NCBI GenBank assembly: GCA_014871385.1
Contig: CM026426.1
Span: 63,829,877-63,893,876, forward strand
Reading direction: 5' to 3'
Length of the DNA: 64,000 bases
Origin: Ceratodon purpureus
Taxonomy: Eukaryota; Streptophyta; Bryopsida; Pseudoditrichales; Ditrichaceae
Made by a program: the position numbers and the translations under genes. This document shows, piece after piece, positions 9,030 to 63,590 of the stretch. The notes below the pieces were generated by a model. The model saw nothing but the letters and a program-made list of their open reading frames with translations. It did no database searches and had not been told where the DNA came from. Numbering within the stretch: position 1 is the first letter of the stretch; each line of letters starts with the position of its first letter.

Positions 9030-9813
9030 TGGATTCGGGAATATGGAGAATTCTAAACCCTAAACCTAGATCTTTGGCAGTCTTGGATAATGAAGAAGAT
9101 GAAATGGATAATGCGGGAAAAGGAGTAGCCCATGACTGAGGCATACATCTTGGTACCCGGGCACATTTGAGAAAATGGTTGGACAAGAGAAGCTTTAGTA
9201 TAGATTTGCAACATCATCTCTACAAGTTTAAATAAGTAAAACAATCCAAGATCTATCTCAATCGAAAAAAGAGAAAAGTATCCAATCAATTGATGAATTA
9301 GGAAAGTCCACGGCTCCCATTTATTTAAGGGCTACAATAGACCCTGAAGCTTATTTAACACTTGAAGCAAAGATCAATGGGGTTAAGGAACTACACTTAT
9401 TGATTCAAGAGCAATTGGGATATTCATGCACCCAACATTCACCCGAAAATGCAAAGCGGAGGTTAGATCTAAAGTGATGCTACGGGAGGTTAGATTAATT
9501 GATGGTCGAACAATCAATTCAGGGCTTATCAACCAAGAGGTTACAATTAAGTTACAAGTGGGGAATCACAAGACGAATCAGTAGCTGATATTACCAATAC
9601 AGGACGTTACGCTTGTATCTTGGGAACACCATGGTTAACTTAGCATGATCCTACCATTCAATGGTTACGAAATGAAGTAGTATTTGATTCAGAACAACCC
9701 TAAACTATTTGTATAAAGGGAGCATGAGTTCAAAGCTATAATCTAGTTAATGCTAACACATGCGATGAAGCCTAGTATTAAGTTAACAGTAAAACAAGAA
9801 AGAACTAGGCATC
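9030..9813 (+). mobile_element. Ty3 element fossil, 5' part (gag end/protease region)
   Basis: A degraded stretch reads as the Gag C-terminal and retropepsin region of a Ty3-type element (protein-like around 9,310-9,720). It stops where the giant insertion begins at 9814; the matching reverse-transcriptase part resumes at 28,477 on the same strand. No 5' terminal repeat is seen, so the element is also truncated upstream against CACTA copy B. It carries many breaks and is old. Confidence 0.65.
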
Positions 9814-10026
9814 CATTAGGGGAAGTATCGGGTCTCCGGGCGAGACTTGTATGCGAGCGGTGAGCGGTGAACGGAGAGCGGAGAGCGGAGATTTGGAGAG
9901 CGGAGAGCAGATAATGAAGTCTTAAATCTAAAAACAGTAATTTTTTTACTAAAAATATATTCTATAAATAAAAAAGTGGAATATTCTAAGAATATATCTA
10001 GTTTTAGCGACCCTATTACCGTGGAC
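9814..10026. repeat. Left terminal inverted repeat of the giant element
   Basis: Starts CATTAGGGGAA. Then comes a short stretch with GGGTCTCC that may be a scar or remnant of the MITE found intact in the right end, then GCGAGCGGTGAGCGG and repeated GAGAGCGGA units, an AT-rich spacer, and CCCTATTACCGTGGA. The 'TTACCGTGGA' motif recurs near 10,058 and, degenerately, near 10,095, giving a subterminal motif array that could be transposase binding sites. Confidence 0.7.
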
Positions 10027-11238
10027 GCAGTTCCATTTTAAAAACATTTCTACTCCATTACCGTGGATTTCGAAACTTTTTAAAAATTATTACCCTATAT
10101 CCGTGGTCTGAATCAGGGTTCATTAATAATTGTTAACTACCTCATATGTTCATATGTGTGTGTTGTATGAAGTGAGTACGATAGATTAACTAACTTTTAT
10201 TGTGATACGTCCATTTCAATATATTTCTTAAATTCTTTCATTTCATTCTTCATTATGGTCATAATTTTATTTTTATTTTTTATTATTGAATTTGTTACCC
10301 ACCACATGATCTTTCATTCCACCTATCTTTTCAATTCCACCTGTATTAGCATATTCTATTACTTTATTGTATCTTTCTTTCATCGATGAATTTTATCCTC
10401 TTTTCGTCTTCCAATTTGGTTGCTCATTTTCTTCTTCATTATTCTTTGTTCATTCTTAATTATAATATTTCTTCCCATTCCAATTTATTTTTTTGGTTCT
10501 GTTATCCCTTATTTTAAGAACACCCCTTTTCAGTTGCCTTTCTTGATTTTCATTTTCAACCTTTAGTTTTTTTTTTTTTTTTTAATATATATATATATAT
10601 TCTTTTTTATTAATTTCACTTGAATCAATTTTTGCGAACTTTCTTTACATCCATCTCTAGTTTCTTTTTTCTTTTTCAACTCTAAACATGTTTTCACATT
10701 TCAACTTTCTTTTTTGGCCCTGTTTTTCTCTTGGTGTACAAACACCCTCCTTGAGTTCCCTTTCTTGATTTTCATTTTCAACCTTTATATTTTATTTTTT
10801 ATTTTTTAAATTTTTAAATTTTAAATTTTTATTAATTTCACCTAATCTATTTTTGCGAACTTTCTTTACATCCATCACTAGTTTCTTTTTTCTTTTTCAA
10901 CTCTAAACATGTTTTCACATTTCAATTTTCTTTTTTGGCCCTGTTTTCACTTGGTGTACAAACACCCTCCTTGAGTTGCGTTTATTGAGCTTTACTTCCA
11001 ACCTTTGACTTTTTTTTATTTTTATTTTTTCTTTTATGGTCTTTATTTCTTCTTCATTTTCCTTTGATAATTCTAAACGATCTTTAAATACCGACGCCTG
11101 TGTTTTTGCTTAATTTTTCTTTGTTTCCTTATCAAAGAATGTAATGTGGCTTATCCAAGTCACCCCATTTAGTAGGATGAAATCCGTTAAACATTATATT
11201 TTCCAGCTTTCAAGGGCGCCAAGCACCTACCTCATGGA
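10027..11238. other. AT-rich left subterminal region of the giant element
   Basis: No coding sequence. The plus strand is strongly T-rich, with an (AT)n tract near 10,583-10,600. It includes the roughly 220-bp tandem duplication at 10,519-11,010 (separate entry). Confidence 0.6.
10519..11010. repeat. About 220-bp tandem repeat, just over two copies
   Basis: AACACCC.. at about 10,520, 10,741 and 10,961 starts successive units. Each unit contains TTTCTTGATTTTCATTTTC, CTTTACATCCATC, CTAAACATGTTTTCACATT and TTGGTGTACAAACACCC. Two full copies and a partial third, highly similar except in the T/A tracts, so the duplication is younger than the element. Confidence 0.75.
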
Positions 11239-11245
11239 TATTTAA
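11239..11245 (+). promoter_or_regulatory. Candidate TATA box of the 11.3-kb gene
   Basis: TATTTAA lies 84 bases upstream of the ATG at 11323 and is followed by a pyrimidine-rich leader (CTCTTCCTCTTTG), a common plant core-promoter arrangement. Confidence 0.4.
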
Positions 11246-11322
11246 GTGGTGGCAACGGAAGGTCTCTTCCTCTTTGTTCATTCTCATCTTCAAGCAAGTT
11301 CCTGAAGGAAGGTTTTTAGGCT

Positions 11323-11775
11323 ATGGAAGATGCCGGGGATACTGCTCTCTCCCTGGATGATATGGAAGGCCCATTTCATCCGTTTGTGGAGGTTGAGGGG
11401 GAAGCTGAGGATAATGGGTGCAATGAAGATCATACTAGAAATGGTGACTTGGATGTAGCATTAGACGTGGTAGGAGAACCATTGGCTGTTGAAGAGCCAA
11501 GTTGTCTCCTAGTACTTGAAGAGGAGCCGGTTGTGCCATTGCCACCTCATGCATATTCCAAGGTTGGGAAGATTCCACCTGGGACTTATTCTAGGGAAGC
11601 ATTGCGAAGAAAGAGTGTAGCTCGTCCATTGTTGAAGCGTCCCCACCTACGACAAGTTTCAAGAGGGGAACGAACTGAGAACGTGGATGTAGCTTGTCCT
11701 GTAGTACAGCTGGAGGTTGGTAATTATACTGAAAATGCAAGTGGGATACCGAAACGTATTAAGTTCAAAGAATAA
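11323..11775 (+). CDS. Small acidic protein of the giant element, function unknown
   Basis: An uninterrupted 150-codon frame from ATG 11323. The N-terminal half is very acidic (many Asp/Glu, motif EVEGEAEDNG); the C-terminal half turns basic (SREALRRKSVARPLLKRPH) and ends IPKRIKFKE, which could serve as a nuclear localisation signal. No known domain, membrane segment or signal peptide. It is the leftmost gene of the giant element, transcribed inward, with a TATA-like box upstream. It is one of the few genes of the element that reads without a stop. It may be an accessory protein or only the first exon of a longer one; the function cannot be inferred. Confidence 0.55.
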   Translation: MEDAGDTALSLDDMEGPFHPFVEVEGEAEDNGCNEDHTRNGDLDVALDVVGEPLAVEEPSCLLVLEEEPVVPLPPHAYSKVGKIPPGTYSREALRRKSVARPLLKRPHLRQVSRGERTENVDVACPVVQLEVGNYTENASGIPKRIKFKE

Positions 11776-12034
11776 AATAGTTATTAATAAGTATTGATGG
11801 CATTAGTTCAGTGCAACCTGTTAGTGGATAGAAAGAACAGAGGGCACTTGTCCAATGCAAAAGCTATTGTTACATAGTGTAATAAATGTGAATGACAAAA
11901 CCTTTATATTGGAATAGGCAATACGAGATTTGTAATGCTGACTCAGTACAAGGAAAAATTCAATCACAAAAGACATCGCCTCACCCTAAACCACCGTCCA
12001 CTAGGTGAATACCTGTCCAGAAAAAGTACTCTCA

Positions 12035-15000
12035 TTACTTTTTCTTTGCCAAAGGGTGAGTCAAGATTCCACTCTCTAGGACTATCTTGACCTCGTTGAA
12101 ACTAAAGGTGGGCGCATCAATGAAAAGATCGGCGTCCGGGTCACGATTGCAGACCTTTAATAGAATGTAATAAAGGTGCTTGCAATAAGAGAATTGCGTC
12201 CGTCCTCTGAACTTCGTCATGGTCTTTCTGAATGCAGGGCAAGTGCAAGCTGGGTAGGAGCTGATGGTGATGTGGTACTATGTGATGGCTGGAGCAACGC
12301 CGGAATCAAGCCCGATGATGCAACCATGGCCCGGGTGAGGTATCATAGTGACAGAGCGTAGGCGAGCTTTAAGGGAGTCGGATGAACCCATTGAGAGGCG
12401 CTGAGCCGGATTCGGACGAGTGGCAGTGCGTTTCACCATCTTGCCGTCTCTCTTACCAGGGTAGCGGTCAGCTTCAGCAGGAACAGGTACTGATCTCAGA
12501 TTTGTAGGAGGCAGGGCAGCAGAGAAGAGGCGTCTCGGGGAGACGGGGATCTTCTTTGGGAGTTGAAACCCTGCCGCTTCAAGTGCTCGAATTTCCGTGA
12601 GGTTTAGGTTTGTACCTAGCTTCACCGGCCAAACCTCTGGAATCGGAGGCATCTCTAGGTCCTTAGAGTATTTGGCAACCCACCTGCGTCTCGTACCCTT
12701 TACACACCTCTCGATGTCGTCGGAGCAGAAGAAGAACTCTGTCTTTTCAGCTATGTTTCTGCGAAAGTTGGTCCAGATTCCGGTGTAGGTAGGTGCTGCA
12801 GTTGAATTAGCACCCCTTACAATCTTCTCGGTACAGTTCTTCTTCGTAACCGCTCTCTGTGCCCAGCAGCACTTGGCGGAAGTCTTGAGCAGTCTCGAAA
12901 TGTGCCACTCCTTGACATTTACCCTTGTTCTTCAACTGCATTGACATGTCGAACCCCCTTCTCGTTCACAGGTGATGATGGGGTATCCTGGGATGTTGCT
13001 GCCGTAGGTTGAACTTCAACTACCTCGGTCTCATCTTCATTGTCATCTTCCACTATGACAGGCATCGCCATAGTGCGAGCCCTAACATTACGTCCTGAAC
13101 CTTTAGGATGAGAATAGTTTACCTTGTCAGGACGATGTGATTCTTCTTCAGCTCCAATCGGAAGGTCTGCCTTTCGTTTGATAGACCCAAACACTTCTTC
13201 TCCTGGCATGTGAGGCAGTCTTGTGCAGAACTCATGTGCACCGGGCATCTCCAACATCGCATCCTCTAGAAGTATGGGGTTTCCTGTCTGCTTTGCCCTG
13301 CGTTCAGCGTTCCTTAGCTTGAGTTCCTTCTTGGATGGTCCCGTGCCGCCCACGTCACCCTTCAGGAACTGGTAAAAATTGACGACCTGTAGAAATGCAC
13401 GGACGAAGTCATCCACAGTAGCAACATACAAATCCTCGCCATTGTTCCCTGAAGCTTGGAGCCATTTGTTGTGGACAGTTTCGGCCAGGTTGCATGACGG
13501 CATCTCTGAAAATTCTTCTTCTGTAAATTTCTGCAAGGGGGGCACACAAAGTTTTAGAATTGATAAATCAACCTTGACGAGAGAGCTTAATTTGAAGAAG
13601 TAGGAGAATCAGTTACATAGAAATTATCGTACATGGGTCATGAAGCCTCCCCACTGTCGAATACGATAGTGCCAGAATGCGAGCCAAAGCTCGAGCTTGT
13701 TCAAGGCCTTCTCTGACACTACTCCTGCGGATACCCACCAAGCGCGCAGGGCGTTATACAAGGTATCCGCTTCTTCCATACTCTGCGCTTTTCTGTATTG
13801 GTGACACATTTTCTTGTGTTGTTCCCACAACTCCTCGGGGATGTGCTTCTCCGTGTGATTGACCATGGATTGTGTCCAATGGAACAGGCAAGTTCTCTCT
13901 CTGTCCACCATCGGGTCCTCCTTATTGCCATTTCCATACACAACCCAAACTGCGTTCCAGTTGGCTTGAGCGCTGTCCGCCATGAAGCCCTTAAAGTTTG
14001 GCGCCTTGACGCCATTCCTTTCCATGACCAGGTTGAGGTTCTGCCAAAAAAGAATTTGGGCTTGGCTATCCTCGGACTGTCACATGTGGCAATCGTCATG
14101 ACACGACAGTAGGTCGAGTCGTACACGTGGCAGGCCATCGTGGTCCAATACTTTACTCTTTTCACATGATCAAACATGACCCATGCGTTCTGCAGATCTT
14201 CACCGGGCTGCATTATTCTCACCAAGTCGACGCCACTTCCAGGTCCAACTTCAGACATCTTGAAGAGGAACACCTTGTCAAGATCAGCCCCCTGCCCTGG
14301 AAATTTGTTCTCTTGGACATAGGCCCAAAGACTGATACCACGGAGCTTGGTGATGGCGTCCATGACTCCGTACCTTCTCAGCAGCCTGAATGTCATCACC
14401 TTGTTGCGGATATTTGGGGAAGCCATGTCCTTGCACCGGTCAAGTACGGGAACAAGCTCCTCCATCGTCAGTTTCCTCGGGGGTGCATCTTCAGGCTGAA
14501 GAAGATAACTGCCAATCAGGACCTTGCTCGCCTCCAACACGACGGCACTCTTCTTAGCTCCAGGAGTGTTCTCAACTTGTTCCTCGATCAGGCTATTGAT
14601 CTCTGTCTAAGAGTCCCTATAGTCCCCTACCTTGACTGGGTGATCATGAGTCCCAACATGGATACATGCCCTAGTCTGATTTAGTTTGCCATAAACATAA
14701 TAAATCTTAGCTCCACATGTAGCAATACATGCAGGAGGTTCCTTACATACCTTGCAGACCAGTGTTGAACTTGTTGGAGGTGGTTGACCCACCAGAAACG
14801 CTTGAAGGGTACATCCTTCAAACTCTGTCTCGTTGACCTTGGCGATTCGAGGCTGACGGTTCAGAAAGTCACAGTCTTTATTGTTGCGTCGCAGCCAACC
14901 AACGCAGATTGAGTAGCGAAACGAAAGGCCAACGTCGTTAGTGATGTTGGTGGTCTTTGTCTTGGTCCAGACATGGCCATCGTAACGCTTGTCCATTCCT

Positions 15001-15755
15001 TGCATTGCCTTGGCCTGCAACTTCGCAGCTCCTTTAACAATTGGGGGAAGCTCAAAAACTACAGGACCGTCGAACACTGCAGGCAAGTACTCAACCTTCT
15101 CGTGTCTCACTCTTGAATAATCTATTTTTTTGAGAATGTTTTTCTTTTTAGGTCTCTCCGCAAGTTTCCTAATAAGCGGAATTACACTAACAGCCTCCTC
15201 TTCTACGGATTGGGAGGTACTGGCACATTTGTCTGGAAGTGTAGTTGGCAAGCTAGATTCTACAGCCTGTCTTGGAACATCAAGTGATGCTTTCACAGGA
15301 CTAGTCTCCTCGTCTGAGGAAAGGGATATGACAGGCGTCACAGCAGGAGTATCTAAGCCAGGCTCTACCTTCACCTTGACATCACGAGGTAGAGGAGTCT
15401 GAATAGTACAAGTAGATGACCGACAAGGAGTTAGAATCTCAGTGGACGCATGCATTGGGGACTCTCTAAGACCATAAACTCTGTCCCTACCAGGATAAAG
15501 GTTCCAGAACCTGTTATCATCATCATCTTTCTCAGAAACCTGATCTGGCGTATGTGTAATCTCATTAGTCTCATCGTCATAAATCTCTTCCTCTATACTA
15601 ACAGTGTCCTCTCTGAAGTGAAATCTGAGGCTAAGGCGTTGTGCCGTCACAAATGCCAAGCCATCCTCATCTACACGTACTGTAAGTGGAATTCCAACAC
15701 CATGCGCTCTAAGCACGGCCATGCCTAACACTCTGTCTGCAGGGAGATGAGCCAT
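12035..15755 (-). pseudogene. Mutator-superfamily (MULE) transposase with SWIM finger
   Basis: Starts at ATG 15755 (MAHLPADRVLG). A non-conserved acidic N-terminus leads to a zinc patch resembling the WRKY-GCM1/FLYWCH type found in MULEs (CKVCKEPPACIATC ... HVGTHDHPV, about 14,660-14,760). The catalytic core has D in YDSTYCRVMTIATCDS (about 14,090), D in FKGFMADSAQANW (about 13,975), the typical CLFHW (about 13,880) and, after a GT-AG intron (13531-13633), E in NLAETVHNKWLQASG. The C-terminus carries a SWIM finger, CTCPAFRK...FSYCKH (CxC...CxH), near 12,180-12,235, and ends PLAKKK. Breaks: in-frame TAG at 14607-14609 and 12278-12280, a frame change near 14,070, and one or two near 12,930. About 1,200 codons in all, long for a MULE. 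It should cut and rejoin the element's ends, but is no longer functional. Confidence 0.85.
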
Positions 15756-16269
15756 CGGAGGGAGAGAGGATAGTACTTGAGTAAAGAATTTGAAATTCTA
15801 GAATGAGAGGAATGTTGCTTCGATTGCCATCAATTTATGCAATAGTGTAACTGTCAGGACCCACCCGATTTTTAAAAAAACATCAATGAACGAATGTAGT
15901 TCGTTAGGTTATTCGGCATAACACTTATTTTTATCATGTAGCCGCCCTATCAAATTGGGACATCATGCTAAGAATTCAACTTGCTCACCAAATTCTCTAT
16001 GATTAGTATTAGCCGTCTTTCCAAGCGTAAAGTAGAAGAATGTTTTGAATATAGAATGAATCATTAAATCTGACTAGTTAGTGGTTTATTTCTAGGTCTA
16101 AGCTAATTAAGATAGATCTAGTGGGCATCTAGGTTTTAGGGGCATAGCATTTTAGGTTTATATACCTTTAGCAAGTTCCAATGTAAGTCTTTAGAGCTGA
16201 GGACTGAGGGCTGGCACTGGGTCTGCGTTTATATGAGGTTCGCACACCCGGATTTGGTTTCTGAGTGTC
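15756..16269. promoter_or_regulatory. Divergent intergenic promoter region
   Basis: 514 bases separate the minus-strand transposase start from the plus-strand basic-protein start. TTATATACC at 16158-16166 is a good TATA candidate about 105 bases before the 16270 ATG. The rest is AT-rich with no coding potential. The two genes may share regulation. Confidence 0.4.
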
Positions 16270-16572
16270 ATGCAGGCAGAGGTTAAGAAGAAGAGAAGGA
16301 GAAGGACTACGCATTATAGTAACCGGAAAGCACTAGTTAGTAGTAGAATGGCAAAGGTTAGGAAACAAAATGAGAGGTTTGAAAAGAGTGGGATAACCAG
16401 AGTATTGGAGTTTCAAGAGACGCCAGTTGTAGATAGAGAGGAACCTAAAGAGAACACAAAGCAGTACGAGCGCCGTGGGAGGAACGCGAGGATTGTGATG
16501 TCTGAGAAAAGTGTTACAGACGAAACAGAGGCGAGCTTTGTGCAAACATGTTCCCTTCATGCAAAACTGTGA
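16270..16572 (+). CDS. Small very basic protein of the giant element
   Basis: A 100-codon frame from ATG 16270 with an N-terminal cluster, KKKRRRRTTHYSNRK, that would act as a nuclear localisation or nucleic-acid-binding patch. The remainder is charged and probably disordered, with no cysteines arranged as a zinc finger. It reads without a stop and is divergent from the transposase. No family recognised. It might be a DNA-binding accessory protein or a first exon; that is only inferred from charge and context. Confidence 0.45.
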   Translation: MQAEVKKKRRRRTTHYSNRKALVSSRMAKVRKQNERFEKSGITRVLEFQETPVVDREEPKENTKQYERRGRNARIVMSEKSVTDETEASFVQTCSLHAKL

Positions 16573-17079
16573 AATTGTTCTATACAATGTCCCATATTAT
16601 ATCAGTTTAGAACATTTTCAGTTGTTTGGATAGCTGTGCTGCTTAGTCACTTCGTTATGATTTGTTTATTCTGATTGAAAATGGAAGCTAATGCAATATG
16701 ATCATACGAGGAGTCTATGTAATCGTCGACTGTGTCACAATCATAAGTTTTACGGCGCCCGCATTTTTAGTGGAGGCAAGTCACATCATGCATTACAAAC
16801 TTATCATAACAGTTCGTTCACTTGAGAGATTCGAATTGTAAACTACGTAGTGAGACAATGACAAGTAAGGATGTAGGTACACAAGGTTGGCTGAAGTTAC
16901 TTTGGGCATATTTTTTTTACCTTATAAGCGCATTTTGTTAGATTTCACCAGTGCTTCTTCGACACTAGACATTTAGGTTATCTGTGCTGCCTGGTTCAAT
17001 CAGAGTCGGTCAGGAGCCTCGAGTCGGTGTCGCATCTCTTCCGAAGCTTGAGTTTTTTATCCATCATTCAAGTTGCAGT

Positions 17080-20000
17080 ATGGTATGCATTAAGTCCCCA
17101 TTTTTTCATAGTTTTGGGTTCGAATCTAATTCTACATCGAGAGGTTCTGAACGGAAGTCGTGTTTCTGCAGGTGCCGCATCCAAAACGAAAGACCCGCGC
17201 AAACTCTGGTTCCATGGAGGTGGACAAAGAACAGCCTTCGGGTAGCGAGATGCCTTCTGGAGAGACTCAGGGCGAGGCTATGCAACTTGGTGGCGCGGAG
17301 GACGATGGTACTGCATCGGGCGGAGGGGAGGATGCAACCACGCAAGGAGGCGGGGCTGAGGAGGAAGCAACCGACATCCAGCTCACCCAGCAAGACACAA
17401 GCGGTAAGATGATTTCGAAGTCAATCTTTTCTTTTGAGCACTTAATGTGTTTCTAGATGTCCACTATATGAGTTGCCGTTGCCGGCATCTAGTCCAAAAT
17501 GGCCCTGTCTTTGTAGGAAACCGGAAACCGAGGGTGATGATGCTTGCTTTTTTTGTATGTAATTTTGCCCTGCGAGGACGAATTTTGTTTTTGGTATGTG
17601 CTTACAATAGGTCCTTGCTCTTCATGCTGATCATAGTTGCCATTGGGTCCTTGAAAGTTTATACATTCCTAAGGTCCCCAGAAGCTTGCTTTTTCCAATG
17701 CCGCTGCCGGCATCGCTCAAAGCTTGTCCATTGTCTTACGTCTAAGAACATTTAGATGCGATGTCCAGCAACTTGAGTGGCTTAAATTTCATCGTGTTGA
17801 TCGGTTGAAATGTTGTTTTCTGATCGCTGCCGACTTGAAAAAGATTGAAGTGTGTAGGATAGTTAGCTCTTGTAAGCATCAGTTTATAGTTAGGTTTCTA
17901 GATGCCCTTCAATTGAGTTGCCGTTGCCGGCATCTAGTCCTAACTGCCCTGTCTTGCTAGAACACCTGATAACGAGGGTTCTGATCATTGCTTCTTTCGA
18001 ATGTAATCTAAGGCATATGTCGGCTAATGCAAGTGCTATGCGTTAGTTCCTTGTAGTCTTGCTGCCCGTAGCCGGGTCCAAGAAAGTGAACCGTAGAGGA
18101 GCTATGTATCCCAGGAGCTGTCTTTTCTCGATGCCGCTGCCGGCATCGCCAAAGGCTTGTTCATTAACTTGCGTCACAGGTCATGCTATAGCGTTAGTTG
18201 AATGTTGGAAATGTTGTAATGTCCTTATTTTGAAGGGCAGTAATGTTGTTCTACGAGAGTTGCCGTCTTGACAGCGGTAGTTGTATGTATGCTAGTTATC
18301 TTTTCGATGCCAGAGTCGGTAGCTGCATTGGACTCCGGATCAGAGTTTCTGTCTCGCAAATGTCGTCTTGACATCAATGCCGGCAACGGCGTTGCCATCA
18401 GATTGATTTTCGGTAGTCGAAAAAGGTCATATCCCTTTTGGGCTGCAGTCCACACGTAGGCTTCTTAGTTGCAAAATGTCAATGCTCAAAGCAATGCCGG
18501 CACCGGCATTGCTCTTAAAATGTAGAGTTTTGTTGAACAGAGCCATTGAGAAGCTGATATTTCATTCTTAGAAATATGGTCTAAAGCTATGCTGGTGACG
18601 GCATCGCTCATAAGGCCTTCCTTTATTTTCTAGACGAACTCCTTCTTTTATTGTTCGAGTCATTGCCGCTAACTTTGGATTTCTCTTTGAAGGCTTATGA
18701 ATTTTTAACAAGTACATTTTATACCAATAGGGTGAGCATAAGTGGCTCAAATTTGTGAAACCATATGCAAATGGAGCTCTAGTTGCCGGCAATGCTTATT
18801 TTGCTGACATTGTGGCCTTATATGAGTTCTGAATGCCTCCTTCTGGGCCCTGCCTGTGCCGGCAGAGGCATATTTATGTGACACATCTTCCTCATGATAC
18901 GTATGCCATAAGTTTTTGGCGACTATCAGGGGTGTTGCCGGTGACGGCAGTGGGAATTAGAAGCCCATGTAGACGGCTTTGCCGGTGCCGGCATCCAATG
19001 GTGTAGGTCACAATTTTAAAATATTCGGTAAGTTAGAGGATACTGCCGGCAGCGACATCAGCTAAGGGGTGTGTTCACATAGTTTTATCTAGTGTTAATT
19101 CGATTCATGTTTCTCTAATGAACCATAGAATGCATCAAATAATGCACCCGCTTTCGAGTTCAAGTTACCGGCAGTGCCTTCGCCGTGTCCTCAGTTAGTT
19201 TCAAGTCTCCCTCAAAAGCATAGGTGCCGGCACAGGCTATTACTTAGAATCCTTTAAATTTTTTTGTATGGACACTATATTTTATAATGCCGTTAACGGC
19301 AATGCATATGACTTTGATTTCCAGGAGTTATAATTAATAATTCAAGCAACAATGTATGTGGTATTCTGACCAGGCGGGTCTTGTCCTTAACCCTTTTTGC
19401 AGATCCCGATCCGATTCAACTGACACGGAGTGAGGTCAACTCGAAGCTTCATGATCTAGTTGGTGCCACCACATGCAATACGGCGTCACGACTGGACGCT
19501 TTGAAGTGGGAGCCGCGGTCCAAGAGCAGACTAAAAATCCCTCTATGCAGGATGATATCGCTGCCCGTTGTTCGACCGTACCTCAAGAGTGATGTCTCTC
19601 ATCTGGCTTCGTATTTTATTGCCAGTGGGTATATGGAGGGAAACGGATTCTTTTATGTATCAGCTGTGGATAACAACGGCCAATCAACCGAGGTTACAAG
19701 AGAAATATCGGATTCTTGGAGTCCAGAGTGGCGGCAGGTAAACGATGAATTTGAGAAAATGCTTCAAGCAGACGAAGACTTGTGTGTTTTCTCAGGTATA
19801 ATGTTCATGGTATGGGACGGCAATCAGCGATTGCAGGCTTGGATGCCTCTAATCAACGAGTACCATCAGGGAGACATAACGTGGCATTATTCCGTGGATA
19901 GTATTCTCCTTGATCCTAAGGGTGATGTACCAGCGGTGGTTGCGGTACTTCACGACGTGAACTGGTAATTTGTTCCAAGACTTTCATCCTGAGTTTGTCT

Positions 20001-23000
20001 TTGTCTGGTTGTGATTTAGTACTATGGATTTCTTTCTTGAGTTTTTAACCATGGCCAAACCGTTTACAGGAGAAATCAAAAATCGCATGTCAAGGCAAAT
20101 ATAGTTCACAAACTATACCGCATTCAGAGCATAGCTCCACAACCAATTTCCTACTTCAAAGGTTTAGTATCTAGCGCTGCTCTGGAAGCAGCTAAGACCA
20201 AGCAGGCTGGAAGGTCGCGGACATGGTATACCTTGACTCTGGAATCTCTGAACGCGGTTCTCAATCAGGTAAGGTTCCATTATTGTTTTGAATTCATTAA
20301 ATTGACATTTCGTAACAAGCAATGAGACTGACATTGTTATTTTTTTCTTGCATGTGACTTTTGTAGCAAGAGTTAGCAGAGGCCGCAGCTATGGCTGAGC
20401 GTAAATTTTACGAGAAATTTCCTGAAGAACGTCAATGGACAAACAAGTCAGTTGATGACTGGGTAAACCAAGCAGTCAAGAAGGTGGAGGACGGTCAACA
20501 GTCCGATTTGAGAAAATTGTTGCCTATTGCGGACCCCGAGCTTGGACCCGAGTTCCTTCAGGAGATTAAGATCCATTACGAGAAATATGATGATAATCCG
20601 GAGATGCTCAAAGAGAAGCTGTGGATGTTTGCTACGTCTGCTATGCCGAATAAAATGAAGATCAAATGGCTTCAACGGTGGAATTCCTCTTATGCTATTA
20701 GAGAGTCCCACAAGTTCCCGAAGAAGAATTTCTCGGATGTCGTATTTGGTGTTTGGTTACAGAAGGCTACTTGGTGGGCACATGTAAGCTTCTTTGCTTT
20801 TTTAGTTATTTACAACTCTTGGTTAAATGATGCGAGAGAGGGATTTAAAAAATTCTAATGGCGTGTTACATCTGTTGGATCCATTATGTGAGTCGATCCA
20901 TTATGTTAGCAAAGGGAGGTCAATGTGAGAAAGTGCCGGAGTTTAATAAGCAATGCCGGTGCCGGCAGAGTCCTAGCATCAGATCCGACCGGGTATTCGG
21001 GTTCGGCTTCCTATACGGGTACGGGCCTGGGCCCGGGTACGATAGGAACTGCCGGTGTCGATAAGGGGGGCTGTCGGTGCCGGCATTGCGAGGGTAGAGG
21101 GGTATGCGGGATGGGGTCGGGGGATGGGGTATGCGGGATGGGAATAGAGGGGTATGCGGGATGGGGTCGGGGGATGGGGTATGTGGGATGGGAATAGAGG
21201 GGTATGCGGGATGGGGTCGCGGCATAGAGTATGTTGGGTGGGGTATGCGATATGAGGGAAGGGGGATGGCGGGATGGGGTGTGCGGGATGGGGCATCCGT
21301 GGGTATGGATGACATGTCGGTGTCAACTGATGCGATGCCGTTGCCGGCAGTTCTCATGGAGGCACAAAATATTTTATGGAAAGTTTTGTTTGAAGGGCTG
21401 GGTGCAGCAGGTTGGGGCCTGGGGTCTGGGGTCATCAGTTCAGGATAATTGAGAGTATTGGGGGCAGGTCCGAAAGATAATTTTTAGAACAATTCAATGG
21501 AGTGTGATAGTATTGGGTAGGAAATATCGTGGTGGCATTATTACCGAACACTCTAATGAACTAGATGATTGAATCGCAGTTGGCGGTCGAGGCCGAAGAG
21601 CTTTTTAACGGTGTCATTGAGGACATGGGTGTCTCCATCCAGTACAACCCGAATGGGCAGGATCCAATGGAGAACATATTTGACTATGTGGACTCTATGC
21701 GCTGCAATCTATGGGACACGGCGTTTTTTAGGGAATTCAACGGACAGGAGCCAGTGCACAAGAACAAGTCTGCGCAGAATCAGCCCAACTTCTATCCTGC
21801 ACTTCGAAGGGTCATTTACAGGTACTTCAAATATGTTCTTTTCCCAAGGAAGGCCATATTGAAGGTGCCGGCATTCTTCCCAAGTTACCTGGATGTGAAT
21901 GGAAGTGAATGCATGTATACTCAGGCAATCATGAAGGCCTGGGACCCCTGCCATTATGAACGTTGCGGGTGGTATCTGGATTGCCCACCCGCTAAACCGC
22001 CATCATTTGATATAGCTCTTCGCGACTCCCTTCAGCCGGCCCTGTCCAAGCTGCCGGCGACTACACCCACGCGGCGTTCTTCTAGATCTCCTCAAGAATC
22101 CACTCTGAAGGGCAAGGGCGCTGCCAAACCGGGGACGTCAAGTGCACGAAAGAGAAAGGCATCAGATATTGAAGAAGAAGATGAAGACAAGGATATTCCT
22201 GCCCTAAACGTGGCAAACAGCAAACAAGATGAAGCAACCGCGGTAAAAAACACATCAGTTGTTCAGGTAACCCAAGCAAAAAAACGGGGAGGTCAGGGAA
22301 CCCGTCCTGAGGGTGACGCAAAGCGTCCTGTGGTGGTTGTGCCAGATAATCGAGTTATGGATTTCACTCCTCCATCGGTGAAATCAATGTCCCAGTCTCA
22401 GGCGGTTACAACCTCAACTGCAGCGTCAGAGGTACTTATAATCAACGACTCCGTGCACGGGATGCTAGAGTATAAAGGTAAACATGGGAAGTTTCCAACA
22501 ACTTTCGATGAGATGAATTCATTCCTGACAAAGGTACGAAATCTCACTTCTTTGCTTTCCTTCAATTTATGTTATCTGGTTTGATCCATTTATATCCAAC
22601 ATTATGCCCTGCCATAACCCCGGACCATCTCAAACTCTCAAGAGCACTGCCGATAGCGGCAGTGCTCAGAACGGGTACCTTCAGCCATATTACTTTGCTT
22701 TAGTTCAGATCTAATCTCACATCATCCGGGTCATATTTATCTTGGATTTGTTTATAATGAAACCAAAAACTTTGGCTATTCAACTTTGGCTTTCACCATA
22801 TTTTCTGTCCACCCTTGGCTTTGACGCAGTTTTCTAAGATTTATGTGATTACGCTCTTCCAGGTTGGTGGAAGCAAAGAGTTCTACTTCCAGGGACGTCT
22901 TGTCTACAAACCAGCCGCGGACTTTATTATCGTCGAGTATCCAGATGGCCTTCCTGTACCGGGATTATCTAGTTCTGCCCCGAGTGTGCCTGCTTGGAAC

Positions 23001-24176
23001 ATGGTGATCAAGGACTTTCTAAAGTATATCATTGGCTTCTGTGGAGGGTATTTGCACGACGACGGAGGTCTTCTCATTTTCTATCCCGAGAGCACGCAGA
23101 TAAGAAGGGAGATTGAATCCTACCTGAAAAACAATGATCTGAAGGTCAAAGACGAGTGGACAATTATCAATTCAATGCATCGTACGCATCCCACCAACCC
23201 ATCCAAATTTGTAAGCAGCCAAACACATCAAAACTCTCTTCATTTTTATAAACTCATTTTCTCTTTATCTGCAAAGTACTTACCATGCTTTCATTGAATC
23301 GCAGACCCTCAAGTTTAAAGCTCTTCTGATGGTTCGTTCATTGCCATTATCAGTGAGGCAGCCAATGGAGCTCGTAATCAGGACAAATCCACGTTTTGGA
23401 AAGGTGAAACTCGACAAGGACGACTGCATCAACAATGTTGTCACAGAAGATTCGGCAGTCAAGGTTCAGAAGGATGGGACGCTTTAGAGGGGACCTAAAG
23501 AGAAGGCAGTATCTTTCATGGAATTGCTTATCACTGGCCTTTGCCCAAACAATGGCATAGTGATTGACCTTATTGCTGGTACAGGTACGAAATGTCATCT
23601 GGATATTTTCTAGTTATTTTCTTGCAGTTGTTATCGTGTTTATTTTACTGTATTATTTAATCTGGTTGCATGTAACAGGGGCTTCCATTCGAGCCTCATT
23701 GAATACAGGCAGGCACATCCTAGCTCTAGAAGCTGACCCTGGACTTTACACTGAGGTTCTAGCACCACTTCAGCCTATCCCTCCTATTTTAACTACTGAG
23801 GTCCTGACGCTAGATGATGACGATGAGGAGGCTCTTCCGGACGTTAATCGAATTGATCTTTGTAAGTAAGTCATTTATGTTTAACGTTTTAGATATGTCA
23901 TACTTGTACTATTAATTTGCGACCAATATTTCTGACCTGTGCGCTGCTTTAAACCATTGCAGTTTGAGTTCAAGTAGCTCTATGGTTGGATGGGAGTCGC
24001 CATGTACCTCAGACCTTCAGTTGCCATGCTATGCAGAAAGTGTGGCCATCCAAATGGCCGATCAATTATCCGAAAGCTCCAGTGCCTCCTCTTCACCATT
24101 CGGCAAATTTGATCCTAGAGCCCGCATTTTTTTGGATTTAAGTGCTTCGGAAGGTGAAGATGAATTTAGTGCTTGA
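17080..24176 (+). CDS. ParB-like domain fused to DNA amino-methyltransferase-like domain, ten exons, one in-frame stop
   Basis: Exons: 17080-17082 (ATG), 17172-17403, 19403-19964, 20070-20268, 20367-20783, 21580-22533, 22863-23210, 23305-23584, 23679-23865 and 23963-24176. All introns are GT-AG, all phases agree, and the total is 3,396 nt. The protein has a PKRK patch and acidic tail; then about residues 110-260, where YLKSDVSHLASYFIASGY and FMVWDGNQRLQAWMPLI match the ParB/sulfiredoxin-fold pattern (DGxxRxxA); a long linker with an acidic/basic low-complexity part (exon 6); then IIVEYPDGLPVPG, FLKYIIGFCGGYLHDDGG and LLIFYPES (about 810-860); and KEKAVSFMELLITGLCPNN, then VIDLIAGTGASIRASLNTGR and HILALEAD (AdoMet motif I, about 990-1,018). 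Catalytic motif before AdoMet motif is the beta-class order of N6-adenine/N4-cytosine enzymes. The catalytic (D/N)PP(Y/W) is not canonical. A TAG at 23485-23487 interrupts the frame. Domain calls are by eye. Confidence 0.65.
17404..19402. repeat. Long intron with array of TGCCG-N4-CGGCA dyads and a tandem duplication
   Basis: This 2-kb intron holds perfect copies of the dyad at 17474, 17699, 17919, 18132, 18495, 18936, 18980 and 19288, and one-mismatch copies at 18378, 18590 and 18851. Further half or degenerate sites lie near 18,784, 19,044, 19,166 and 19,227. The first four belong to a roughly 440-bp diverged tandem duplication (about 17,455-17,890 and 17,900-18,330). Some copies have longer arms: AGCAATGCCGG/CCGGCATTGCT at 18490-18513 and CGATGCCG/CGGCATCG at 18130. 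Confidence 0.85.
20954..20967. promoter_or_regulatory. TGCCG-N4-CGGCA dyad in intron 5
   Basis: Perfect copy TGCCGGTGCCGGCA; others in the same intron are at 21072-21085 (one mismatch) and 21336-21349 (perfect). Possible protein-binding sites, by repetition and symmetry only. Confidence 0.55.
21091..21240. repeat. G-rich minisatellite, 50-bp unit, three copies
   Basis: Units starting near 21091, 21141 and 21191 contain AGAGGGGTATGCGGGATGGG followed by GTCGGGGGATGGGG. Degenerate continuation runs to about 21,300. Dense runs of three to five G on the plus strand could form G-quadruplexes in the pre-mRNA of intron 5. The reading frames across it are low-complexity artefacts. Confidence 0.75.
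22642..22667. repeat. Perfect 11-bp-arm palindrome in intron 6
   Basis: GAGCACTGCCG, loop ATAG, CGGCAGTGCTC. It contains the dyad core at 22648-22661 and is the longest perfect version together with 18490-18513. Confidence 0.8.
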
Positions 24177-24362
24177 AAAGTTAGTATTACAAGGCGTCAT
24201 TTTAGGATTCCACATTCCTTGTAATCAACATTCTCTGGATTTTGTATTGGATTCTGATTGAGTATTTTCGGTTTTGAGGATTTTCATTTCATGCGGCGAT
24301 TTTGATGAGACAATCGATATTTGTCCCTCTCTTTAAAACTGTTCAGCCATCCCATACCTTAC

Positions 24363-24376
24363 TGCCGGCAACGGCG
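24363..24376. promoter_or_regulatory. Last dyad copy, 3' of the methyltransferase gene
   Basis: TGCCGGCAACGGCG, one mismatch from the consensus, 187 bases after the stop codon. It marks the right edge of the dyad domain. Confidence 0.5.
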
Positions 24377-24479
24377 CTAGCTTCGATGTCACTCCCTGTT
24401 TTTAATCCCATGCTATTAGTCTATTACTCACACCTACGCACTTGCCTTTAATTTCCCTATCTTGCATCAATAGTTAGCA

Positions 24480-25430
24480 CCCAAAACACCCTAAACCCCT
24501 CCCCCGATAAACCCCCTAACCACCCCTATCGCAGTTTCACACAAGCCCACTCCCTCGCGGTGACTAGCTATCCCAACTCTTAAACCCCACCCACCCGACG
24601 CGGTCACTCCCTATCCCACTCCCTAACCCCCCCTCACCCCTCCCCGTCACTCCCTGTCCCACTCCCTGCACACTCCCTATCCCTCCCCCTAACCCCCCCT
24701 CACCCCTCCCCGTCACTCCTTGTCCCACTCCGTGACCACTCCCTATCCCCCCCCCCTAACCCCTCCTCACCCCGCCCAGTCACTCCCTGTCCCACTATTT
24801 GAACACTTTCTTTTTCTCCCCTAACCCCCCCTCACCCCTCCCCGTCACTCCCTGTCCCACTCCTTGACCACTCCCTATCCCTCCCCCTAACCCCCCCCCC
24901 CTCGCCCCTCCCCGTCACTCCCTGTCCCACTCCTTGACCACTCCCTATCCCTCCCCCTAACCCACCCTCACCCCTCGCGGTCACTCCCTGTCCCACTCCC
25001 TGACTACTCCCTATTTCTCCCACTAACCCCCCCTCACCCCTCCCCGTCACTCCCTAACCACTCCCTATCCCTCCCCCTAACCCCCCCCCCCCCATCACCC
25101 CTCCCCGTCACTCCATGTTCCACTCCTTGACCACTCCCTATCCCTCCCCCTAACCCCCCCCCCCCCCCCCCTCACCCCTCCCCGTCACTCCCTGTCCCAC
25201 TCCTTGACCACTCCCTATCCCTCCCCCTAACCCACCCTCACCCCTCGCGGTCACTCCCTGTCCCACTCCCTGACTACTCCCTATTTCTCCCACTAACCCC
25301 CCCTCCCCTTGCGGTCACTCTCTGTCCCACCTAGTCACTCTTCCCTCGCGGTCTCTCCCTATCCCACTTCCTTAACACTCCCTCATTGTCCCTCATTCCC
25401 TCTCCCCTTACCCCTCCATCATGTGTGAAA
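24480..25430. repeat. C-rich minisatellite, about 75-bp unit
   Basis: About ten diverged units of the pattern CACCCCTCCCCGTCACTCCC, TGTCCCACTCCTTGACCACT, CCCTATCCCTCCCCCTAACC, with poly-C expansions up to 20 bases. A higher-order duplication of about 270 bp is visible: 24,899-25,035 recurs almost unchanged at 25,169-25,305. The minus strand is G-rich, so G-quadruplex/i-motif formation and replication slippage are likely. It lies between the converging 3' ends of the methyltransferase and RING genes. Frames in it are not genes. Confidence 0.9.
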
Positions 25431-25787
25431 ACATTTTTAATGGCAGGTTCAAGATAAAAAACAAAATCAGTATATTAGGAATATGAGAACTTTCCAGTGC
25501 AGTGGTCTACGTTGCAACTAATATAACATAGAGTATATTCAAAACTATATACATTAATGCCTAAACATCGTCAATTCAGAGTTTTCTGACCATGACCCTT
25601 CTTGAGAAGTTTACATCTGAACCATTCAATGGCTCGTCATTTAACCATAATCTTTACCTCATATATGCTCGTACTGCTGCTCCTATGATACTACTTACAT
25701 CTAGATGAAAAATTAAATAAAGTCGGATTATCATATCTCAATATACTTAAGATCTATTGATATCTATGATAAGTCGTGGTGGTATTA

Positions 25788-27281
25788 TCAACTCTTGGTT
25801 CCAGTGACTGTTGGAGCATTGATGCTATCACTTGCGGCCTTCAAAACTGCCTCGAAGCTTGTAACCTCAATTTCTTGTTGTGTGTTTAACTCGCCACCGA
25901 ACTGGGCAACCCATGGTTCCGCAAGGTGAATTGGTGATGATGCTAGGAGCAGGTCTTTGCAAACCTTGCATCGATAGTTTCGGCATGATATCATCTCTGC
26001 TGCACACGGAGGATGAAGAAAACAGCCACAAGAAGATAGAACAGCGGCTTTCCATATGAAACCCTGACCACAATAAGCACATCCATTCTTACCTGGATAA
26101 CCCAATGGTCGAATTGACTGCTGCTTCGGATACTGAAACCTCCTTGGAGTTTTTAGGCTTAGCATCTGTGCCCTTGCGACTCTGACTGCTGCTTGACTGA
26201 TTTGTAACTCTTCGATAGCTCCCTCCAAGGCTCTTGCTTCGTTACCCATAGCTAATTCTAGTTGTACAACATTCTCCCGGATTAGAGCTTCAGCCTCCCT
26301 CATCTCAGACAGTTCCTTGAGCAATTCCTCTGACTCTTGGATTGTTCTCTTGTATAATTCTGTGGCACCCTCTGAACGTAGAACTTGCCGCGCCTCCTTA
26401 AGCTTTGAAACGTATCTGCTGTTCAGATCTTCTTCTGCAATATCAGAGGATTCAGCACTCATCCTTGCGAGGCAACTATTGTACCTCTCTTGCAATTGAT
26501 GAAGACGCTCCTCCACATCCTTCACAACCTCAATCTTCTGCTGCTCCACTTCCAATGCTCCCTGGATCTCACGAATTCAAAGATCAGTTTCTCCCCCGCC
26601 CTTACTTGTACCGCACAAGTCCTTGATAATCGTGATGAGGCCCTCAACTTGGCATCTAGCGGCGACTGGTCCTAGCTTAGTCGGATTTCTCCATGCGTTC
26701 TTTAGTCGAGCTTCATGGCGGTCCAATGCCTCAGCGCACCAATTCACTGATTTTCCGTGAACAAAAGTAGCAAAGCATGCCTTGAGAAAACGAAGGCAGA
26801 AATAGTTGTTGTGGGGTCTATTACCGTAAACCTTGAAATACTGCTGACCAAAAATCTTGAGTTGCTCCTCGTCTTCGCACCTAGAGAAGTCGTATCGCCC
26901 CTTGGAAACTCCTTCCTTCCACACTGCAGTGACTTCTTCATCAGTGATAAAGCTATAGTACTTGGAAACATCACGTAGAAGCGGCCCCTGATCCGAAAGT
27001 CCCACCACAGTTGTAAAGAACTCCTTTCCATACACTGCATCACGACCCATTAGCATAGGAGCAGCCACAAGCATACGTTGACGCACCCCTATGTCGATTT
27101 CTCCAAGTTCAAAAGGGTCGGAGAACTCTTCAGTGCTGAAGACTCGGTCACTGCCGCCTTCTACATCACTCCTAGTTGTTGTATTGTCGTCACTAACCTC
27201 CTGAGCATCAGGAGCACGGTGGGTTGCACAATGCTGTCTAGTCCTATGTTGCTTAGTCCCCTTCCTCCTCTTCCCTGTCAT
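25788..27281 (-). CDS. Coiled-coil protein with RING-like zinc finger, one in-frame stop
   Basis: ATG at 27281 (MTGKRRKGTKQHRTRQH, a basic, probably nuclear targeting start). The N-terminal domain (about residues 60-235) includes MLMGRDAVYGKEFF, SDQGPLLRDVSKYYSFI, FGQQYFKVYG and YFCLRFLKACFATFV; no family recognised. Next is a long Glu/Leu-rich coiled coil (about 240-385). A cysteine-rich module follows near 400-450: CAYCGQGF ... LSSCGCFLHPPCAAEM ... YRCKVC. The order CxxC ... CxxHxxC ... CxxC is RING/SP-RING-like, suggesting ubiquitin- or SUMO-ligase activity or simple protein binding. A TGA at 26577-26579 (possibly from CGA) interrupts the frame; upstream and downstream parts are in phase. 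Its place inside the giant element and intronless structure suggest cargo co-transposing with the transposase. Confidence 0.7.
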
Positions 27282-27999
27282 TTTAGTATCTAACACACAA
27301 CCAACCCTGACCGCTCTCTAAGTTTGCTAAAAAAATCTCGCAAGAACTCTGCACTACCAAAGAAGGAAGACACTAAACCATATCTCTATTGTAAACAAGC
27401 GAAGAAAACGTGAGCCCTATAAGTAATGATGGTCAGTGCTGATCCATGCCGCAAACCACATGACCATATTAAACATTCACATTATGAATGTGTGAAAACA
27501 TTGATATGTAGAAGGCACATTCATTTGAACTAAAGAACAACATCATTTGAATTGAACTTCTCGACCTTGAACAGTCATGAGCAGAGTACATATTGGCTTG
27601 GAGTACAATGAAACGCCTTAAGAAATTGTAATCATAGATTACATGTATTGGTCTACACCCCTAATCTCTGATTCTCAGAACCACTACTAAAATAGTAATA
27701 GTCTTAAGATTTACATTTATTTTTTTCTTAATAATATTCACTGTTTTCATCGTATCAGTGAACATATAAAAAATATGGATTCCTGTTGTCAATCGGGAAA
27801 GTATATGAAACAGATGAAAAAATAGGATTTTAAAAAGCGCAATGGGTCTATAAACAGACATGACGTCATCATGACGTCAGCCCTAATTTTAACACAAGAA
27901 AGTATATTAGGATTAATATTATTGTTATTGATAATTATTTCCACGGAAATACATGCACTTAGTTTATAAAATCTAAAAATAGAAGTATAATTTTAGAAA
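27282..27999. other. Right subterminal non-coding region of the giant element
   Basis: Contains the presumed promoter of the minus-strand RING gene. AT-rich, no coding sequence. A short palindromic TGACGTCATCATGACGTCA block near 27,861-27,879 holds two copies of the TGACGTCA element, a bZIP-type binding site, in tandem. Confidence 0.5.
27861..27879. promoter_or_regulatory. Tandem TGACGTCA elements
   Basis: TGACGTCA occurs at about 27861-27868 and again at 27872-27879, 11 bases apart. This palindrome is the classic CRE/as-1-like bZIP recognition sequence. It lies about 580 bases upstream of the RING gene start. Confidence 0.45.
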
Positions 28000-28476
28000 C
28001 TATCCACGGTAATAGGGTACATACTTGTTCAAAATACTTGATGAAAAGTCAAATCTCCGCTCTCCAATTGCCGCTCTCCGCTCTCCGCTCACCGCTCGCA
28101 TGCTAACTTTCCCCTCGGGTCTCCAAAGGGCCTTTGGGTTTCCCACGTGCCTAAAAATTTGGCCCAGCCCGTGCACTTTATCCGCTGGCACCAATGGTGC
28201 CACGTGTTGCCAACAGAGAATGAAGTGGGTCTAGCCAATCGCTGCCAGCGACGGCGTGTGCCACTGCTGTCACCCCATTGGACAATACGAGCAGTAATGA
28301 CGTTGTCAACAAACGTGTATTAGTGTTGTCAACCCATAGGACAATAGCTTCTAACGCTGTCAGCGGGCAGGATATCCACCAATGAGATTACTTAGAGAGG
28401 CATGCGTGGGCAGCAAGTTCACCTACCTTTAGGCTGTCTTACAAGGCCCTTTGGAGACCCCACATTTCCCCTAATG
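28000..28476. repeat. Right terminal inverted repeat of the giant element, interrupted by a MITE
   Basis: From inside outward: TCCACGGTAATAGGG (complement of the left CCCTATTACCGTGGA), the CCGCTCTCCGCTCACCGCTC block (complement of the left GAGCGG block), TTTCCCC, the MITE with its TSD, and CCCCTAATG at the outer edge. Excluding the MITE it is about 120 bases long. Confidence 0.7.
28116..28464. mobile_element. MITE with GGGTCTCCAAAGGGCC ends, 8-bp TSD (hAT-like)
   Basis: Inverted ends GGGTCTCCAAAGGGCC (28117-28132) and its complement (28445-28460). The 8-bp direct repeat TTTCCCCT stands at 28108-28115 and 28465-28472; an 8-bp duplication is the hAT hallmark. About 349 bp, no coding capacity. 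It sits inside the right TIR of the giant element, so it is younger. The left TIR holds a fragment with GGGTCTCC at the equivalent place. Confidence 0.7.
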
Positions 28477-62820: not shown

Positions 62821-63590
62821 GCTGTAACAAATTAAAACACTTCTGTCAGTGGATGATTTTGAAAAACAAATGTAGAATTATTCAAAAAACTGTTGGACAG
62901 AGCATAAGTTCTAAGCGTAATTATTATAGCTTGCTCTAGGTTAAAGTTCATGAGCTGTGCAAAACAATATGGATACACATAACTGCTTCGAATACACATA
63001 AATAAGAAAATAAGGAAACTGTGAAGTTCTACAAATTTGTTAAGAGGCATTCGGGTTAGCAGCGTCGTCCTCTGTACCGGCAGGTTTTCGAAAACGACAG
63101 ACTACCGCTAAATTGTAACCTTATACAAAGAGAATTAAGAGCCTGCTCATAGGACTCGACTGCGTTTAAAAAGACAGAAGGCGGTGTTATATAACAGTCG
63201 GGTCAACTATGGAGATTCCTCTACACATCCCACCGTGAACCAGTACCCGTGGTCACCGTATGAAAGGAACCATAATAAAGTAAGATATAAAAATCTAATC
63301 CAAAAGTGGATTCGGTTATTACATCCTCCCCTGTTAGATTTGGAGGTCGGAGAAGTAGTCACAGACAGCAAGTATAACACTCACACCAAAGCATGTGCGA
63401 GGCAATTTGCATTACACCCAACTAATTTGATATATCTTAATCCAATGAAGCAGAATAGAGAACTGAGAAGTGTTTTCAAGTTTTATCATCATCGAATTTT
63501 TGTTCAACCATTAATTTATTTTCAGATTGCAGTACTACTTCAATAAACAGTATTCACAGTCTCCTTTCCCACAGAAGAGTGCGTATAGCA
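62821..63590. other. Upstream of CACTA copy C; no TNP2 coding found
   Basis: Presumed intron and flanking DNA. Plus-strand frame 63,184-63,546 resembles nothing known. Confidence 0.35.

Follow-up and report, generated by a model that had tools for sequence, protein, structure and literature searches.

A giant Mutator-type transposon family in the moss Ceratodon purpureus with a methyltransferase-domain gene and a palindrome cluster in its non-coding DNA

The stretch of DNA analyzed here (the window, 64,000 nucleotides) lies on contig C6 (110.5 Mb) of the Ceratodon purpureus genome, which amounts to 362.5 Mb in 151 contigs, and contains a transposon of 18,277 bp at positions 9838-28114 (Table 1). 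The element harbors a transposase gene, a methyltransferase-domain gene (hereafter the methylase gene), a gene for a coiled-coil protein with a RING-like zinc finger, and a small acidic open reading frame (ORF), so that four gene units are supported where an initial annotation had counted five. The exon model of the methylase gene was drawn from reading frames, splice signals, and conservation, with no cDNA, and its exons have the same length in other copies or differ by multiples of 3; Pfam searches with single exons gave almost nothing, and spliced proteins were needed. In the window copy, stops at codons 383 and 1128 and a frameshift near 14079 break the transposase gene. A TAG at 23485 interrupts the methylase gene. 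The transposase and RING-like genes are open in the two full copies on contigs C2 and C8.

Table 1. Features of the element and of its insertion site (window positions; methylase exon bounds are approximate)
Feature	Position	Strand	Remarks
Window	C6:63829877-63893876		Ceratodon purpureus (moss)
Target element, left part	9814-9837		left "end" of the initial annotation
Target site duplication, left copy	9828-9837		TCGGGTCTCC, 10 bp
Left terminal inverted repeat region	9838-10068	+	GGGCGAGACTTG.., GCGGTGAGCGG/GGAGAGCGG repeats, CCATTACCGTGGA; arms pair with right end; copies begin here
~220-bp tandem repeats	10442-11036		non-coding
Small acidic ORF	11323-11775	+	150 aa; frame kept in C2 and C8, one stop in C6_81; selection signal not clear
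Transposase gene	12035-15755	-	exon 1 13633-15755, exon 2 12035-13530; splice sites inferred
Methyltransferase-domain gene	16270-24176	+	multi-exon, head-to-head with transposase gene
Methylase exons 1-5	16270-16512 (end uncertain), 17172-17403, 19403-19964, 20070-20268, 20367-20783		
Methylase exons 6-10	21580-22533, 22863-23210, 23305-23584, 23679-23865, 23963-24173		
TGCCG-N4-CGGCA cluster	17474-24376		introns and 3' flank of methylase gene; 11 exact, 19 with at most one mismatch
50-bp tandem repeats	21095-21292		intron of methylase gene
C-rich ~66-bp tandem repeats	24605-25330		between methylase and RING-like genes
Coiled-coil and RING-like zinc-finger gene	25788-27281	-	single exon, ~497 aa; in-frame stop 26577-26579 in window copy
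Right terminal inverted repeat region	28002-28114	-	terminates ..AACTTTCCCC
Target site duplication, right copy	28115-28124		TCGGGTCTCC, identical to left copy
Target element, right part	28125-28476		right "end" of the initial annotation

The limits of the unit are set by its identical flanking duplications and by the points at which other copies start and stop. With a left-end query (9814-10140), 37 of 41 matches have their first aligned base at position 22 of the query or beyond; of the other four, two begin at 17-18 and two (the window itself and contig C117) at base 1. With a right-end query (27930-28124), 34 of 42 matches stop at base 185-186, corresponding to 28114-28115; the C2 and C8 copies align with the window from 9834/9837 to 28115/28114. 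Inverted-repeat arms of 41 and 34 nt, with 85% and 76% identity, lie within ~230 bp of the left terminus and ~110 bp of the right one. The initial annotation had placed the ends at 9814 and 28476, at the motif CATTAGGGGAA. When the element and one duplication copy are removed and the flanks joined, a 376-bp element results, with inverted ends CATTAGGGGAA..GGGTCTCCAAAGGG that continue across the join; these ends are therefore those of the inverted-repeat target element and were rejected as transposon termini. The 11-mer in them is weak by itself (4 matches with one mismatch in the window against 1.45 expected, a number reached by 5 of 100 shuffles), and they are shared with no other copy except that on C117, whereas the true ends recur across the genome. 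The C117 match (C117:34186-34511, 96% identical) is the only other left-end match to include the first 24 bases of the query, which belong to the target element, and is perhaps a duplicate of the window's insertion site on a small contig. The element had also been described as nested in a single Ty3 retrotransposon recovered on both sides; on the right, RNase H, an integrase zinc finger, and a chromodomain of Ty3 do follow, but the left half rests on reading by eye, and the ORF at 9232-9474 had no Pfam match.

Twenty further copies were read at both ends, over 60-76 bases across each border (at least one more possible pair, at C6:70.5 Mb, was left out), and all of them carry a perfect duplication, which is 10 bp long in ten copies, 11 bp with one terminal base ambiguous in nine, and 8 bp in one. 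The script considered lengths of 8-11 bp only and took the best offset per copy, and the exact length may be off by one base. By eye, the duplication is perfect at the C8 copy and matches at 9 of 10 positions at the C2 copy. In half of the 20 copies the two ends are separated by 33-106 kb, a spacing that presumably comes from nested insertions, yet their duplications are still perfect. The perfect duplications suggest recent movement of the family. Gene linkage was followed with 40 of 162-1819 candidates scored per probe (41 for the RING-like gene), which makes all copy numbers lower bounds; the comparison retained 40 of 43 transposase, 40 of 41 left-end, 40 of 42 methylase, 41 of 41 RING-like, and 40 of 42 right-end matches, second fragments of copies already counted having been dropped or merged and two short methylase pieces left out. 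Transposase and methylase in separate elements are not the rule, since both lie within 15 kb in 19 of 40 transposase matches (the remainder were not followed singly), the methylase exon having the orientation of the transposase match and lying downstream of it at a distance of 5.9-9.1 kb. The RING-like gene occurs within 15 kb in 14 of these 40. By chance, 0.03 pairs would be expected. Left end, methylase, RING-like gene, and right end follow in order within 110 kb in 11 of 40 cases, the window included. The shared gene order together with the perfect duplications shows that the genes move as one unit, which the initial annotation had only surmised, and this is a real giant Mutator-type transposon family. 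Around one C1 copy (C1:28866263-28866322 and C1:28885663-28885722; L053, L054), the flanks look by eye like the beginning of the transposase gene that the element itself carries, and the copy seems to have jumped into a related element. Related elements at C3:15747413, C5:7724699, and C2:7801260 have left-end matches beside the RING-like gene, and the terminal repeats of this subfamily look homogenized or rearranged.

IS256 and Mutator transposases are akin, and an IS256-family transposase tops both lists of our structure searches, with moderate fold scores, the fold match being that of a relative. The protein, which has 77 relatives in metagenomes, also contains a WRKY/GCM-like finger and a SWIM zinc finger match that is weak and below the cut-off (E 0.16). 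Two traits reported for Mutator-like elements (MULEs), target duplications of 8-11 bp and long inverted repeats (PMC6446971), are present, with 10 bp in the window, 8-11 bp at 20 of 20 further copies, and long terminal inverted repeats. On the other hand, the Pfam MULE family (PF10551) matched neither the spliced transposase (E up to 10) nor 32 relatives (E up to 1), a result still compatible with a divergent member. This lack of a match and the moderate fold scores would also suit a DDE superfamily of its own, as yet without a name, that has inverted repeats and 10-bp duplications in common with Mutator; in view of these very traits, of the IS256 family standing first in both lists, of the WRKY/GCM-like finger, and of the weak SWIM match, we regard such an origin as improbable. 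Viral contigs, searched with two peptide patterns for each protein, contained no relative of the transposase or the methylase.

The product of the methylase gene had been described as a ParB-methyltransferase fusion. Its methyltransferase half is borne out by profiles for N4C/N6A enzymes (phrog_3008, best E 2.8e-7; Pfam N6_N4_Mtase, at a best E of 7.8e-4, below its cut-off), but the ParB half is confirmed by none: neither profile, PDB, phage, nor PHROG searches gave a ParB match of use, and the string DGNHRLQAW is what we take, by eye, to be a ParB-like motif. Motif I (DLxAGTG) is intact in 11 of 11 copies covering it and is accompanied by ALExD in 8 of 11 (ALKAD in 2, AMEAD in 1), from which S-adenosylmethionine (SAM) binding seems to be kept for a use. 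The canonical motif IV of such methyltransferases is DPPY or SPPY, which occurs in 0 of 13 copies; 10 have ExPDG and 3 have decayed variants. The motif may not be a defining trait of the algal family. Because the usual motif IV is absent from all 13, base methylation is doubtful, and the fold may act as a module that binds SAM or DNA. Among 7990 scored candidates drawn from 5.8 billion proteins, no methylase relative was found at E<=0.01, perhaps because introns split the gene in unspliced gene calls. The RING-like protein has 12 metagenome relatives with conserved Cys/His, although its RING matches in the PDB are weak (E 0.54) and its predicted structure has a mean pLDDT of 57.

Ratios of nonsynonymous to synonymous divergence (dN/dS) between copies indicate how these genes have been maintained. 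For the methylase, dN/dS is 0.086 for C2-C8 and 0.124 for window-C8, 0.10-0.16 in other comparisons involving the C6 copies C6_18 or C6_75, 0.17-0.21 with a further C6 copy, C6_81, and 0.30 for the close pair window-C2; for the RING-like gene it is 0.11-0.15 (window-C2, 0.25), and for the transposase 0.15-0.16 for window-C2 and window-C8, 0.27 for C2-C8 (33 changes), and 0.29-0.32 with C6_81. The pair C6_18-C6_75, both of them broken, gives 0.91 for the methylase and 0.95 for the RING-like gene and serves as an internal control for decay. The three genes are under purifying selection between copies, and the low ratios, set against those between the two broken copies, therefore mark them as working parts that are kept through transposition and lost afterwards, not as the cargo that the initial annotation had taken them for. 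The capture of genes by MULEs is known, Pack-MULEs being named as a case (PMC12477816), and the methylase and RING-like genes could in principle be functionless host or bacterial genes captured by chance; given the selection across copies, the recurrence of the same genes in the same order in many copies, and the open frames in C2 and C8, we consider this very improbable. The genes may not always have stayed together in descent: C2 and C8 are 98-99.8% identical at ~11.0-15.8 kb, 59-94% identical right of 16.4 kb, and 84-89% identical at the left end, and a copy at C6:73.49 Mb shares 96% with the window in the transposase, 91% in the RING-like gene, and 75% in the methylase exon. The methylase part would thus seem to be exchanged between element copies.

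The non-coding DNA of the methylase gene contains a cluster of the palindrome TGCCG-N4-CGGCA. All 11 exact sites in the window and all 20 with at most one mismatch lie within the element. Of the 20, one falls in a transposase exon and the other 19 occupy the methylase gene's non-coding DNA; the terminal repeats contain none, and neither do the 45.7 kb of the window outside the element. In five other copies, 8-15 exact sites were counted per copy and 0 in the adjoining DNA (10-19 kb) read along with them, and the palindrome is absent from four further MULE loci of the genome, which total 13 kb. Relative to the window's sites, in ungapped columns, palindrome arms are 89-93% identical in C8, C6_18, and C6_75 against 70-71% for their flanks, 96 against 93% in C2, and 94 against 85% in C6_81, homologous sites in different copies not being independent. 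Over 50 distinct exact sites from five copies, the centre is mostly symmetric (KYRM), and the palindrome is mostly preceded by GC-N2 and followed by N2-GC. Exact sites recur in the 3' half of six of seven diverged copies read. The seventh, of a distant subfamily whose protein is 59-64% identical, has none in its 3' half (L077), while its 5' half (L078) contains 13 exact ones, located in the two matching introns at a spacing of 95-126 bp; they include a 103-bp tandem array at 401-835, whose consensus unit contains the 26-bp perfect palindrome GGGTACTGCCGTTAACGGCAGTACCC, and a second cluster at about 2461-3118 (locus coordinates). A further copy (L079) shows 0 exact sites and one with a mismatch in its 5' half, from which the first domain exon is also missing. 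Such a pattern is what the candidate binding site of a self-encoded dimer would be expected to leave.

Taken together, these data probably describe a divergent 18.3-kb Mutator-type moss transposon family that moves as a unit and encodes a candidate self-targeting methyltransferase-domain protein. The unit and its 10-bp duplications are observed directly; the element would be transposed by its own transposase, or in trans in the case of broken copies such as that of the window, and the RING-like protein would act as a conserved helper. The methyltransferase-domain protein would bind the palindromes clustered in the introns of its gene and in the 3' flank, and would set the state of the DNA or chromatin locally, keeping the element expressible or self-regulated. 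This binding and state-setting step we put forward tentatively, as plausible but short of likely. A more speculative extension, in which we place somewhat less trust, is that a dimeric ParB-like/methyltransferase-fold protein and its intron palindrome arrays form a parS-like self-recognition system, in which a modified, perhaps non-catalytic domain would mark or shield the element from host silencing, arrays would grow as ~103-bp tandem repeats, and exchange of the module between copies would make recognition and escape evolve in the form of cassettes, in convergence with the VANDAL/VANC system of Arabidopsis.

The palindromes could instead be bound by a regulator of the host, or by the transposase or the RING-like protein of the element, leaving the methylase-like protein as an unrelated accessory such as a transposition helper. 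We hold this to be rather unlikely, as 19 of 20 sites lie in the non-coding DNA of the methylase gene and none in the terminal repeats, and as they hold the same place in the distant subfamily. An equally unlikely reading, to our mind, is that the protein uses the intronic palindromes only to repress or tune the gene that encodes it, limiting copy number, with DNA methylation and silencing unaffected: the confinement of the sites to one gene, the symmetric 14-bp core with its mostly symmetric centre, which fits a homodimer, and the altered motif IV, which suggests that ordinary catalysis is lost, all agree with it, whereas the conservation of motif I and ALExD speaks for a retained use of SAM binding. 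For the self-targeting protein that we favor, the palindrome pattern suggests a putative system like VANDAL/VANC.

The initial annotation had proposed a distinct class, but the theme has a precedent, since the 21.5-kb giant transposon Sola1-1_Ec32 of Ectocarpus carries a 1104-aa ParB-methyltransferase opposite the transposase (PMC12477816), and green and red algal cases are cited in the same source, whose authors propose that proteins of this kind bind to the transposon that encodes them and modify it. Common to Sola1-1_Ec32 and the moss element are the giant terminal-inverted-repeat DNA transposon and an N4C/N6A methyltransferase gene read opposite to the transposase gene, here head-to-head within one unit, the Sola1 product being a ParB-like protein of ~1100 aa. 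Sola1-1_Ec32 is a Sola1 element of a brown alga, and no binding palindrome appears in its section 5 account (PMC12477816); the moss element differs by its Mutator-type transposase, 10-bp duplications, changed motif IV, palindrome cluster, and RING-like gene, with ParB unproven. ParB-methyltransferase genes in giant algal transposons are thus already published, and the palindrome cluster is new here; among the papers listed from an open-license library, no earlier account of such a Mutator-type element was found. Among MULEs, which include VANDAL elements such as Hiun (PMC6446971), VANC of Arabidopsis VANDAL causes sequence-specific loss of methylation and acts on short motifs in the tandem-repeated non-coding DNA of the element (PMC5735166, PMC10398659). 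Both systems involve a plant transposon with extra genes and a short motif clustered in its non-coding DNA, but VANC is not described as a methyltransferase in these sources, whereas the moss protein has a methyltransferase domain and its motif is an intronic palindrome. Maize MuDR and other MULEs likewise share the 8-11 bp duplications, long inverted repeats, and extra ORFs (mudrB; vanB, vanC) (PMC6446971), whereas the moss element is 18.3 kb long (1-6 kb being usual according to the initial annotation), has three large conserved genes, and encodes a transposase unmatched by Pfam MULE. In Marchantia sperm, N4-methylcytosine is deposited by MpDN4MT (PMC8566409). The moss element brings the algal theme into land plants and into a Mutator-type transposon, supplies a candidate DNA target that the algal account lacks (PMC12477816, section 5), and would add a second plant case of self-targeted silencing control beside VANDAL/VANC; a simple binding assay could now test whether transposons bring along epigenetic enzymes that act on the very elements encoding them. 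Bacterial proteins of the ParB class recognize clustered palindromes of ~14-16 bp (parS), although ParB homology of the moss protein is unconfirmed and a segregation role is not implied.

The U and V sex chromosomes of Ceratodon purpureus each exceed 100 Mb and make up ~30% of a 360-Mb genome (PMC8000587), sizes that would place the window on a sex chromosome. C6 represents 30.5% of the genome and holds 19 of the 40 scored transposase matches; the three large genes are open as far as translated in the C2 and C8 copies, and the four C6 copies (window, C6_18, C6_75, and C6_81) have stops, both observations resting on small numbers. Elsewhere in the window, DUF4218 proteins are encoded on either side of the element, at 4202-4756 (+; E 1.8e-27) and 61895-62845 (-; E 1.8e-35), which we take to be probable parts of CACTA-like elements, and a long open frame at 36918-37967 (-) encodes a Tc1/mariner-type transposase (DDE_3, HTH_Tnp_Tc3_2).

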